Assembly (NCBI GenBank): GCA_022340405.1
Contig: JAJDOA010000269.1
Coordinates: forward strand, 1-32,702
Direction: 5' to 3'
From: Desulfobacteraceae bacterium
GTDB lineage: Bacteria > Desulfobacterota > Desulfobacteria > Desulfobacterales > JAJDOA01
Length of the DNA: 32,702 nt
Shown here piece by piece: positions 1,833 through 22,849 of the stretch. Position 1 is the stretch's first letter, and each line of letters begins with the position of its first letter. The translations under genes were made by a program, and so were the position numbers. Under the pieces are notes generated by a model that worked only from the letters and a program-made list of their open reading frames with translations, did no database searches and had not been told where the DNA came from.

Positions 1833-4196
1833 ATGAACGATCGAATCCGGCGGCTGCGCGAGCACAGCCTCAACACCCCTCCCCGACTGTCTGCGGAACG
1901 AGCCATCTGGATCACCGATTTCTACGAAAAGGGATTGGCTCTGACGGAGTCGGTGCCCGTGCAGCGAGCCATGGCCTTTCGCCACCTTCTGGAAAACAAG
2001 GAAATCTACATCGGAGAGGGAGAGCTCATCGTGGGAGAGCGGGGGCCTGCGCCCAAGGCAACCCCCACCTATCCGGAGGTGTGCCTGCACACCGCCGAAG
2101 ACCTTGCGCTCATCGACGGCCGGGAAAAAGTACCCTTTCGCGTGGATGCGGAAACAATGCGCATATACCGTGAACGGATCGAGCCCTTTTGGAAAGGGCG
2201 GACGATTCGGGAAAAGATCTTTGCCCACATGACGGACGAATGGAAGCGGGCCTATGAGACGGGCATCTTCACCGAATTCCAGGAGCAACGGTCTCCGGGG
2301 CACACCGCCATGGGGGGCAAGATCTACCACGGCGGCTTTCAGGAACTGATAGACCACATCCGCCGAAGGGCGGCGTCTTTGGATTTTATCAACGACCCGG
2401 AGGCGCTGGACCGGTTCGAAGAGCTCAGGGCCATGGAGATCGCCGCCGACGCCATCGTCTCCTATGCCCGCCGTCATGCCGACATGCTCCGGAAGATGGC
2501 CGCGGAGTCGTCCGATCCGGATCGCCGAAGCGAGCTGCTGCAAATGGCGGAAATCTGCCGGCGGGTCCCGGCAAGGGCGCCGGAGAGTTTCTGGGAGGCA
2601 CTGCAGGCGTATTGGTTCGTGCACGTTGGGGTGATCACGGAGCTCAACCCCTGGGACGCCTTTAATCCGGGGCGTCTGGACCAGCACCTGTGGCCTTTCT
2701 ACCGCCGGGAGCGGGCGGCGGGAACCCTGACCGAGGAGCGGGCCCGTGAACTGCTTTGTGCTTTCTGGATCAAATTCAACAACCATCCCGCGCCGCCCAA
2801 GACCGGAGTGACCCTCAAGGAAAGCAGCACTTACGTGGACTTTGCACTGATCAACCTGGGCGGAGTCACCTGCACCAATAAAGACGCCGTCAACGAGTTG
2901 ACCTATCTGATTCTGGATGTCGTGGAGGAAATGCGCCTGCTCCAGCCCTCTTCCATGGTCCAGTTGAGCCGGAAGAATCCGGACCGCTTCCTCCGACGGG
3001 CGTTGCGCATCGTGCGCACCGGATTCGGCCAGCCCTCGATCTTCAACACCGAGGCCATCGTGCAGGAGCTGGTCGCCCAGGGCAAGAGCGTGGTCGATGC
3101 CCGGGAGGGCGGAGCCAGCGGCTGCGTGGAAGCCGGAGCCTTCGGCCGGGAGGCCTATTTTCTCACCGGATATTTCAACCTGCCCAAAGTGCTGGAGATC
3201 ACCCTGAACAACGGCGTCGATCCCCGTACGGGAAAACGCATCGGCCTGGAGACCGGGCACGCTGGCGCGTTTCTACACTTTGACCAGCTACTGGAAGCCT
3301 TTTCCCGGCAGGTTCGCCATTTTGTGGACATCAAGATCCGGGGAAACAACGTCATCGAACGGATCAACGCCCGGCACATGCCCGTGCCGTTTCTGTCCCT
3401 GCTCATCGACGACTGCATCGAAAACGGAAAAGATTACAATGACGGCGGCCCCCGATACAACACCTCCTACATCCAAGGAGTGGGACTGGGGAGTCTGACC
3501 GATTCGCTGACGGCGCTGCACCGGCACGTGTTCGAAGACGGCACGGTCTCCATGGAGCAGATGCTGGCGGCCCTGGCCGCGGATTTCGACGGATATGACG
3601 GCCTCCATTCGACGCTGGTACACGAAACGGCCAAATACGGAAACGACGACGACGAGGCGGACGAAGTGATGCAGGCCGCCTTCGAGATCTACCACCAGGC
3701 AGTGGACGGCCGTCCCAACACCCGCGGCGGGGTCCACCGCATCAACCTGCTGCCCACGACGTGCCACGTCTACTTCGGCTCGGTGACCGGCGCCCTCCCC
3801 GACGGCCGCAAGGCGGGCGTCCCTCTTTCCGAAGGCATTTCTCCGGTGCAGGGGGCGGATGTCAACGGACCAACGGCTGTGGTGAAGTCCGCCGCGAAAC
3901 TCGACCACCTGCGCACGGGAGGGACGCTTCTCAACCAGAAATTTCTGCCCCAGGTGCTGGCGGACGACGCAGGCCTGGACCGCCTGCTGCACCTGATACG
4001 CACCTATTTCCGCATGGACGGCCATCACATTCAGTTCAACGTCGTGAGCCCTGAAATGCTGAGGCGTGCACAGGCGCAGCCGGATGCATACCGGGACCTC
4101 ATCGTTCGCGTCGCCGGCTACAGCGACTATTTCGTCGATCTCTCCGAGGCCTTGCAGGAGGAAATCATTCGCCGAACCGCCCATGCATTTCGGTAG
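1833..4196 (+). CDS. hypD: trans-4-hydroxy-L-proline dehydratase-type glycyl radical enzyme
   Basis: 787 aa; GASGCVEAG active-site Cys loop; C-terminal glycyl radical motif RVAGYSDYF; active-site residues line up with published HypD numbering at a constant offset of 3. Confidence 0.88.
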   Translation: MNDRIRRLREHSLNTPPRLSAERAIWITDFYEKGLALTESVPVQRAMAFRHLLENKEIYIGEGELIVGERGPAPKATPTYPEVCLHTAEDLALIDGREKVPFRVDAETMRIYRERIEPFWKGRTIREKIFAHMTDEWKRAYETGIFTEFQEQRSPGHTAMGGKIYHGGFQELIDHIRRRAASLDFINDPEALDRFEELRAMEIAADAIVSYARRHADMLRKMAAESSDPDRRSELLQMAEICRRVPARAPESFWEALQAYWFVHVGVITELNPWDAFNPGRLDQHLWPFYRRERAAGTLTEERARELLCAFWIKFNNHPAPPKTGVTLKESSTYVDFALINLGGVTCTNKDAVNELTYLILDVVEEMRLLQPSSMVQLSRKNPDRFLRRALRIVRTGFGQPSIFNTEAIVQELVAQGKSVVDAREGGASGCVEAGAFGREAYFLTGYFNLPKVLEITLNNGVDPRTGKRIGLETGHAGAFLHFDQLLEAFSRQVRHFVDIKIRGNNVIERINARHMPVPFLSLLIDDCIENGKDYNDGGPRYNTSYIQGVGLGSLTDSLTALHRHVFEDGTVSMEQMLAALAADFDGYDGLHSTLVHETAKYGNDDDEADEVMQAAFEIYHQAVDGRPNTRGGVHRINLLPTTCHVYFGSVTGALPDGRKAGVPLSEGISPVQGADVNGPTAVVKSAAKLDHLRTGGTLLNQKFLPQVLADDAGLDRLLHLIRTYFRMDGHHIQFNVVSPEMLRRAQAQPDAYRDLIVRVAGYSDYFVDLSEALQEEIIRRTAHAFR

Positions 4197-4260
4197 GCGA
4201 TACGATGGTCGGCCGCTGGAGGGGCCGTCCGGAAAAGGGTGAACATTCAGGGTTATGAAA

Positions 4261-4435
4261 GTGAAGAAAGCAGTGAGCAGTTAACAACAGTGAAAAGCAA
4301 TGGCCGAGGGGATGCGGATGCACTCCGCGGCTGCTTGCGCAGTCTCCATATTGCCGTTCCGTTGCAGTTGCTGCTTACTGCTCGCTGTTTACTGCTTACT
4401 TTGACACAACCCACAGCCAACAACCTACAACCCAC
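4261..4435. repeat. degenerate heptanucleotide arrays, partly inverted, upstream of the GntR regulator
   Basis: gtgagca gttaaca acagtga aaagcaa (from 4273); reverse strand of 4361-4399 reads gtaagca gtaaaca gcgagca gtaagca; 4406-4435 reads caaccca cagccaa caaccta caaccca. Confidence 0.7.
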
Positions 4436-4447
4436 GAAAAAACGGCC

Positions 4448-5155
4448 ATGCCCTTCGAAACGATCCAGAGACAGTCCGCTCCCGAGATGGCGATACAGCA
4501 GATCCTTGAACAGATCCACAACGGGGAGCTGGCCCCCGGATGCCGCCTGCCCGCTCAGCGAGCCCTCGCCCGGCGGTTGGGTGTCGGGCGATCCTCGCTT
4601 CGGGAAGCCATCAACGCCCTGGTGGTGATGGGGTATCTGCGCGCCGTGCAGGGAAGCGGCACTTTCGTGCGAAAGAATCTCCCGCAACCCTCACCGGGCG
4701 GTAAGGGACTGGCCCGGGCGCTGGAGGCGGGATCGATCTTTGATCTCATGGAGGCGCGGGAGCTGCTGGAGTGTCGGAGCGCCGCCCTGGCCGCCGAACG
4801 GGCCGAACCTCCGCAGATCGAGGAACTGCAACGGATCATCCGCCGGTTGGCATCGCTGCCGCCGGTACCCTATGAAGATTTTCTGAGCGCGGATTTCGCG
4901 TTTCACCTTTGTGTGGCCCGGGCCACCGGAAACGAGGTGATCTGCGAGATGACGCGGCTTGTACTGGAAAGAGCGGCGGAACACCACGCCAGGCTGCGAA
5001 CCGAACGATTGTCGGAGACCTACCGAAGCGCATCGCTGCGCACCGCCGAAGGGGTTGTATCGGCCGTGGCCGCAGGGGACGCTGCCGGCGCCGCCCGGCG
5101 GATGCATCAGCACCTGCATCTCATCCGGGATGAACTGCGGGAGGTGGTTCGGTAG
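4448..5155 (+). CDS. FadR-family GntR transcriptional regulator
   Basis: N-terminal wHTH ...ILEQIHNGELAPGCRLPAQRALARRLGVGRSSLREAINALVVMGYLRAVQGSGTFV plus an FCD-like helical C-terminus. Confidence 0.92.
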   Translation: MPFETIQRQSAPEMAIQQILEQIHNGELAPGCRLPAQRALARRLGVGRSSLREAINALVVMGYLRAVQGSGTFVRKNLPQPSPGGKGLARALEAGSIFDLMEARELLECRSAALAAERAEPPQIEELQRIIRRLASLPPVPYEDFLSADFAFHLCVARATGNEVICEMTRLVLERAAEHHARLRTERLSETYRSASLRTAEGVVSAVAAGDAAGAARRMHQHLHLIRDELREVVR

Positions 5156-5160
5156 TTCCT

Positions 5161-5208
5161 GCTTAGGGCTCACGGTTCACAGCTTAAGGCTTTCTGTTTG
5201 CTTTGCTA
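5161..5208. repeat. degenerate heptanucleotide array
   Basis: gcttagg gctcacg gttcaca gcttaag gctttct gtttgct: 7-nt periodicity. Confidence 0.65.
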
Positions 5209-5234
5209 CCATCCCCAACAACAAAGGACCCGCC

Positions 5235-11290: not shown

Positions 11291-11478
11291 AGCATTTGCC
11301 AAAAATAGGTTCCGATTGGAATGGCCTTTGTCTTGTTTTCCGTAGGGGCGGGGTTGATCCCCGCCCAGCGTTGCGGGGCCTGTCACGCTGCAACGGGAGG
11401 GGATAAACCCCTCCCCTACAATTTCATAGAACCGCATAGCCAAAACGGAACGGAATTCTGGCAACCGCTATAGCGGTT
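11291..11478. repeat. MITE/REP-like composite intergenic element with nested hairpins
   Basis: Ends agcatttgccaaaaata (left, +) and agcggttgccagaattc (right, - strand); inside, gtaggggcggggttgatccccgccc faces the inverted gggaggggataaacccctcccctaca. Confidence 0.6.
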
Positions 11479-22393: not shown

Positions 22394-22849
22394 GCATCTC
22401 TCCTTCGTTGCAGGGCTGTTCACCGGAGGGTTCCGACGTCGTAACGGCGGAGTTTTCCGCGCCGGCATCAGGGAGACTCGATTTAGGCAAAATAACAACA
22501 CGCCGCGAAAGGGTCAAGATTGCAGCCGCCGGCAGGAGGCACGGGACTCAGACGCAAATCACGCCATGGTATCTCTGCAAAACGCTTGCAGAAAAATGAC
22601 GTGCTTCAACTAGAAGCGATCTCAACATTAGGATTTTCGTTCAAGGTCAAGGAGGATCCACGTTTTCAGCCGCCCCGGTGGCACCGGGATCTGCGACAGG
22701 CATACGGCGGTATTTCGAGGACGGGAAACGAGAACCCGACGCCGAGATTTATCCGCCCCTGGCGGGTTGGGCGAAAAGACAATTTTGAGATGGCTTCTAA
22801 TTTGTAAAGGGAACGGAAAACGTATACCTTCTGTCAACGACGGGGCCGT

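Follow-up and report, generated by a model that had tools for sequence, protein, structure and literature searches.

A gap between two genes of a Desulfobacteraceae contig carries short units that recur every 7 nt in both orientations, and the question is what such arrays are and what they do at a gene boundary. The gap lies between the gene of a PFL-like glycyl radical enzyme (1833–4196, plus strand) and that of a GntR-type regulator with an FCD domain (FadR-like; 4448–5155, plus strand). The window, which is the whole stretch of 32,702 nt that was analysed, belongs to a genome of 4.0 Mb in 375 contigs (93.7% complete). An earlier note made from the letters had described degenerate, partly inverted heptamer arrays at 4261–4435, and these arrays were indeed present. 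Our analysis showed that the sequence at 4262–4402 belongs, as a divergent copy, to a dispersed intergenic element made up of two facing degenerate arrays of one heptamer word, which are able to form a hairpin. Such elements are located at gene boundaries, their arms always point inward, the number of their 7-nt units changes fast, and at orthologous junctions they differ in word with both arms alike.

Organization of the element at 4262–4402

The complete inverted element, in which an array, a core of ~85 nt and a complementary array follow one another, spans 4262–4402. The outer arm adjoins the upstream glycyl-radical enzyme gene and reads GAAAGCA GTGAGCA GTTAACA on the plus strand (4266–4286); past 4286, a slip of 3 nt (ACA) is followed by GTGAAAA, with which the arm reaches 4296. 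The inverted arm adjoins the GntR gene and reads GTAAGCA GTAAACA GCGAGCA GTAAGCA on the minus strand (4372–4399). The core between the arms (4281–4371, minus strand) was recognized by profile match as a divergent member of an ~88-nt core family, and it extends into the final unit of the outer arm. A separate array, CAACCCA/CAGCCAA/CAACCTA/CAACCCA, occupies 4405–4435 on the plus strand and stops 12 nt short of the GntR ATG; no inverted partner of it was seen. Period 7 was called by TRF at 4371–4400 and at 4405–4435, with modest scores for the single arrays of the window, and the only strong lag-7 signal in the 32.7 kb was that of 4405–4435.

These assignments altered the unit lists of the earlier note in several places. 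Its plus-strand units gtgagca and gttaaca stood, whereas the slip puts acagtga and aaagcaa off the 7-nt register. All four of its minus-strand units were correct, but their extent is 4372–4399 instead of 4361–4399, and the array of the second type was confirmed with its start moved from 4406 to 4405. The consensus GTNRRYN, which all units were said to fit, was too loose, and three listed units miss it (acagtga, aaagcaa, and GCGAGCA, which departs at position 2); GTRARCA, in rotated form CAGTRAR, described the word better. The CAACCCA array had been grouped with the inverted GTRARCA pair, a grouping that we abandoned since the two are distinct words at different positions.

Genome-wide occurrence of the arrays

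Three consecutive GTRARCA units with at most two mismatches had 104 matches in the genome, and the reversed pattern had 0, so that the word exceeds chance across the genome. In 35.7 kb of intergenic DNA, a sample in which about half of the contigs had been picked for holding arrays, the autocorrelation at lag 7 was the highest of all lags (0.290 vs 0.256 in dinucleotide shuffles, z = 15.1), with further peaks at lag 14 (z = 9.0) and lag 21 (z = 10.9). The signal thus withstood the comparison with shuffled controls by which the earlier note had proposed to check it. The lag-7 excess was absent from coding DNA, and period-7 tracts numbered 56 in the 35.7 kb of intergenic DNA vs 4 in 230 kb of coding DNA. 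It was also absent from the 7.9 kb of intergenic DNA of ten unselected contigs, which indicates that some contigs hold clusters of arrays and others do not. Since the array-rich contigs equalled the others in GC and tetranucleotide profile, binning contamination is not indicated. In a set of 421 kb, assembled from the surroundings of arrays and from a small number of contigs taken without selection, 68 of the 71 GTRARCA arrays were intergenic.

The intergenic regions of this genome also contained arrays of other heptamer words, among them CCGTRAG, GATGTCN, GAGTNAG, and CAACCCA. Additional degenerate CCGTGAG/CCGTGAA-like units were seen on the minus strand in the gap 3' of the GntR gene (5160–5216).

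A core shared among copies

The gap between the arms measured 81–90 nt in nine copies, the window copy among them. Eight copies, the window copy excluded, aligned over a core of ~88 nt, which starts with GGAACTGCAGCGGCACGGCA and ends with ATGTTGTTTTTGGTTTTTAA. These eight gave E values of 1e-11 to 1e-19 with the profile that was built from them, and a copy outside the model set (C88:4325) matched the core at E 7e-13. The window core reached 11.5 bits with the eight-copy model, from which it had been left out, and was aligned end to end (model positions 2–87), while the best of 500 shuffled window cores reached 4.4 bits. Taken alone it had E = 0.1 in 421 kb and is a weak member of the core family; the membership is based on the profile match together with the exact place between the arms, not on the E value alone. 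The core was absent from the 57 other genomes of the order in which it was sought.

The conserved core with its flanking inverted arrays is a MITE-like trait. Target-site duplications were not seen by eye at the inspected copies, and the ends of the element were variable. A Y1 transposase was considered as the carrier and rejected, since the ~2-kb loci around the two Y1_Tnp genes were free of arrays; one of these loci has a REP.

Polarity of the arms and position relative to genes

Adjacent pairs of arrays on opposite strands within 600 nt faced inward in 17 cases and outward in 0 (own genome, 421 kb), and the pairs less than 200 nt apart, pooled from this genome, further genomes, and viral contigs, comprised 106 inward vs 2 outward. 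With respect to the nearest gene end, as defined by our own simple ORF caller, the arrays pointed away in 27 of 28 cases, alike at 5' and 3' ends. A looser de novo classification of CAGTRAG and CCGTRAG placed 37 away from the gene and 4 toward it. For many copies of the element the site was the 5' end of a gene or the space separating two divergent genes, and copies were also present between convergent genes.

A de novo search, in which no word was required, found 151 inverted period-7 pairs, with CAGTNA in the 5' arm 92 times and in the 3' arm 0 times. In 44 other distinct words, G minus C of the 5' arm was +1.18 (sem 0.20), without A/T skew. The loci of these pairs were retrieved via CAGT-type arrays or phage proteins, so the word frequencies are biased, but the polarity should escape that bias. 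The G skew of the 5' arm was −0.02 in ordinary intergenic hairpins, −0.01 in coding ones, and +0.48 in REP-like hairpins. Because hairpins do not in general have a G-rich 5' arm, hairpin function alone fails to explain the polarity. A U-rich 3' arm was rejected as its cause, A minus T being zero in the non-CAGT words. A stop-codon trap, in which the 7-nt spacing of TGA or TAA would bring a stop into each frame, was rejected as well: gene 5' ends show equal polarity, and other words are free of stops.

Chance or base composition is refuted as the source of the arrays by the 104 vs 0 control matches, the lag-7 z of 15, and the polarity of 92 to 0; nothing of weight spoke for it, the TRF scores in the window being merely modest. 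It is also hardly credible that the window array is an autoregulatory operator of the adjacent GntR/FCD regulator in which the 7-nt rhythm is incidental. The position directly upstream of the gene would fit such an operator, but the same word and layout recur at tens of other loci of the genome, by which this explanation is largely refuted. The heptamer as such probably does not serve the GntR gene as its specific operator.

Folding of the element and its flanking T tracts

Folded as RNA, 4262–4402 had a free energy of −59.9 kcal/mol (z = −4.2), and 0 of 200 shuffles were equally stable. The 10 nt after the 3' arm contained 4.9 T in the own genome vs a background of 2.2. At least 5 T within 8 nt after the 3' arm were present in 54% of cases in the own genome (6% expected) and in 48% in bacteria of family f69 (8% expected); the T tract was weak in the viral and mixed genome sets (13–15%), and so was that of the window copy on its plus strand. 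Since the layout is symmetric, the stem has A-rich and T-rich flanks on either strand, like a bidirectional terminator.

The scan of 4150–4500 for intrinsic terminators (compact GC-rich stem, loop of 3–8 nt, T run) gave no site, and the earlier claim that no ordinary promoter or terminator explains the 7-nt rhythm held for an ordinary promoter and a compact terminator. The loops of the elements, at ~85–290 nt, are far longer than those of standard intrinsic terminators. The Rfam search returned one sub-threshold chance match, located outside the element.

Distribution, word replacement, and unit turnover

Exact arrays of three GTRARCA units were found in Cyanobacteria, Chloroflexi, Bacteroidetes, Deltaproteobacteria, Acidobacteria, Planctomycetes, Verrucomicrobia, Elusimicrobia, and others, as well as in viral contigs. 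Within the own phylum, three consecutive CAGTNAN units occurred in 73 of 395 genomes with a very uneven spread. The reversed control (GACNANT-type heptamers) was abundant in some genomes that are poor in or free of CAGTNAN (e.g. G068, G112, G147, G394), so that other words dominate there. An inner motif, CAGTRAAAAGCAA, that seemed common to the window and the phages was dropped, as it was frequent only in the viral set (at arm ends in 44/124 viral cases, 1/10 in the own genome, and 2/72 in other genomes). Our literature search found no description of heptamer arrays in phages.

At the tail-tube junction of phages whose tail-tube proteins are 88–100% identical, the arrays consisted of CAGTGNN, RGTTCAA, AGGGNNC, CAGTAGY, or CAGTTNC, and a 73%-identical relative had REP-like palindromes at the same stop-to-start junction. 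The tail-tube junctions of the IMG/VR phages L345–L359 contained REPs or else inverted arrays with units of 7 or 8 nt, wholly replaced between close relatives. Between the phages L207 and L266, with flanks ~99% identical, the arrays differed by whole units. One bacterial junction compared in eight genomes of family f69 carried CAGTNAN in three, CAATTNN-like words in two, AGTCNNN-like words in two, and a short plain palindrome in one, which is an array-poor genome. The survey of word replacement covered this bacterial junction and the one phage gene, and at each junction compared, phage or bacterial, both arms carried one word. Arms paired with their own partners gave duplex energies of −36.1 (phage) and −31.4 (bacteria), vs −15.1 and −14.4 with arms from relatives that have another word. 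Three non-CAGT bacterial junctions folded weakly (z of −0.9 to −1.7).

Pairing of the arms unit by unit was considered and rejected, as it did not exceed that of shuffled partners. Within a word, an arm matched its own partner no better than shuffled ones (z = 0.0, 2.2, and −1.5); the unit order is thus unmatched between the arms, which are not base-by-base copies of each other. Key features lie beyond what the earlier note had seen: the polarity is fixed and inward, the copies form a family with a common core of ~88 nt, and orthologous junctions differ in their word.

Relation to known heptamer repeats

Heptamer arrays have been reported piecemeal over decades, without an accepted account of their origin or function; the cyanobacterial STRR heptamers are related repeats. 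The element described here is a further case of the paired or tandem heptamer arrays known from Xanthomonas, Beggiatoaceae, and Geobacter. The GGGAATC (GGGANTN) heptamers of Xanthomonas campestris and X. axonopodis form 70–75 convergent opposite-strand pairs, for which the cited sections of the study report that no function was found (Rehm et al. 2015, PMC4692102). According to the same sections, they are like our arrays in being degenerate, intergenic, and convergently paired, with positions 1–4 and 6 fixed, the word strand points away from genes at both gene ends, and the array length varies between close species. GGGANTN is quadruplex-forming, in contrast to GTRARCA (CAGTRAR), which has no G runs. 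Two species and one word are covered by these sections, which describe no shared core, phage copies, or word replacement (PMC4692102).

TAACTGA direct repeats are known from Beggiatoaceae, Cyanobacteria, and Bacteroidetes (MacGregor 2015, PMC4679880), and their reverse complement CAGTTAT fits CAGTNAN. They resemble the present arrays in being intergenic, patchy over phyla, and mixed with other heptamers, and 7-nt indels were seen between strains (PMC4679880). They are mostly single direct arrays just 5' of start codons, for which a possible translational control was proposed, with only one inverted case in the main genome (PMC4679880). Our words differ from them, CAGTRAR and CCGTRAG being related only through the consensus CAGTNAN, and the CAGTRAG arrays are found at both gene ends, pointing away, unlike the forward TAACTGA arrays before starts. 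Geobacter metallireducens has tandem arrays of 3–5 degenerate units of 7–8 nt in classes 1–3, of which classes 1 and 2 are, as here, dispersed opposite-strand pairs at variable distance (2009 genome paper, PMC2700814). The class 3 word MTYCTGA rotates to CTGA-M-T-Y, with the fixed and free spacing of ACTG-N-T-N found here; the Geobacter words are nevertheless different (the MTYCTGA heptamer and octamers), and binding sites of a global regulator were proposed for them (PMC2700814).

Seven is the commonest unit length of prokaryotic long simple sequence repeats according to Mrazek 2007, where slippage tied to the polymerase footprint was proposed, as summarized in the cited parts of PMC4679880 and PMC4692102. 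The over-representation of 7-nt tandem units in intergenic DNA is shared by our genome; Mrazek 2007 counts repeats, and those summaries mention neither inverted pairing nor polarity. REP/BIME sequences are, in the cited part of the family paper, GTAG-tagged palindromes (PMC3733652). Like them, the present elements are dispersed intergenic inverted DNA with a G-rich 5' arm, but REPs, which have a RAYT (Y1 transposase) as partner, do not consist of tandem heptamers, and the arrays have neither the tag tetranucleotide nor the single palindrome. The literature that we searched yielded no description of a polarity shared across words, of phage copies, or of word switching. The rules found here, i.e. 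CAGT-type words across phyla and phages, the G-rich strand inward, one word per arm pair, and replacement with the layout kept, tie the Xanthomonas, Beggiatoaceae, and Geobacter cases together, and they make origin (copying, slippage, or templated extension) and function (a gene-end hairpin) directly testable.

Origin and action of the element

The origin and the action of the element are separate questions, and a hairpin action and a DNA-level origin may both hold. At a probability of roughly 0.45, we read the element from its sequence features as a hairpin-forming unit dispersed over gene junctions, which may mark transcript ends in both directions or insulate neighbouring genes from each other. 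The whole inverted unit would be copied and so spread within the genome and to its phages, and the arms would afterwards be refreshed by 7-nt slippage. The working part would be a long stem-loop, which any word could form in transcripts of either strand. Because T-rich tracts lie outside both arms in this genome, the putative transcript-end or insulating hairpin is the most likely action, which we hold with moderate confidence. It is opposed by the long loops, by the many copies located 5' of genes or in divergent gaps, by the weakness of the T tract in the viral and mixed sets and on one strand of the window copy, by arms that fit their own partners no better than shuffled ones, and by the inward G strand.

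A tentative alternative is that the elements are a non-functional by-product of a DNA process, and that genes tolerate such insertions at their boundaries only. The two DNA 3' ends that a break or a stalled fork leaves between genes would be extended by copies of one short word and then joined, or a selfish inverted repeat would be inserted, with slippage following in either case. We keep it as a serious rival since the inward G strand, seen in the 44 non-CAGT words and not in ordinary hairpins, follows naturally from a DNA-level origin alone. The polarity is fixed regardless of gene direction, the arms share a word but not a unit order, the word pools are genome-specific, and turnover is very fast, all of which would suit a by-product. 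It would, however, leave the T tracts outside the arms unexplained, and the cores that copies in this genome have in common indicate that units were copied entire and not synthesized anew. An RVT_1 reverse transcriptase was searched for in the 93.7% complete genome without a match, by which a reverse-transcriptase origin was rejected, and no enzyme was identified. It is improbable that the arrays are traces of a telomere-like process, in which both DNA 3' ends at intergenic breaks or gaps are extended sequence-specifically. A genome and its phages would then have a pool of words, the same G-rich word would be set inward on both ends, and the ends would be joined across filler; if true, this would account for the fixed polarity, the shared word without shared unit order, the word pools, and the cross-phylum word replacement.

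Recognition of the fixed word letters every 7 nt by a global regulator, or else by a protein that binds RNA, comparable to the proposals for Geobacter and Beggiatoaceae (PMC2700814, PMC4679880), is doubtful. The fixed letters of CAGT-N-A-N with two free positions and the dispersal of sites both upstream and downstream of genes are consistent with it, but it is opposed by the wholesale replacement of words at orthologous junctions with the layout kept, by the coexistence of several words in one genome, and by the lack of a link to gene direction. We regard as very unlikely a phase- or length-variable switch in which the number of units tunes the expression of the GntR gene; close phages do differ in unit number, yet the arrays adjoin many unrelated genes, lie also between convergent genes, and are built of mostly imperfect units. 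The hairpin-forming junction element remains our preferred reading.

Other repeats of the window and genome

Leaders rich in C and A that resemble heptamers or octamers (CAACCCA, AACCCAACAAACC) were observed directly 5' of start codons in the own genome, e.g. at 4405–4435, some of them without an evident Shine-Dalgarno sequence. A REP-like palindrome, GTAGGGGAGGGGTTTATCCCCTCCC, is located at 11396–11416; the corresponding GTAGGGGAGGGG REP had ~185 matches in the genome vs 0 for the reversed control, interleaved with the arrays. Another dispersed element of ~150 bp, with the near-complementary ends AAGCCATCTCAAAATT...AATTTTGAGATGGCTTC, is present at ~22611–22800 and recurs between numerous other genes of the genome.
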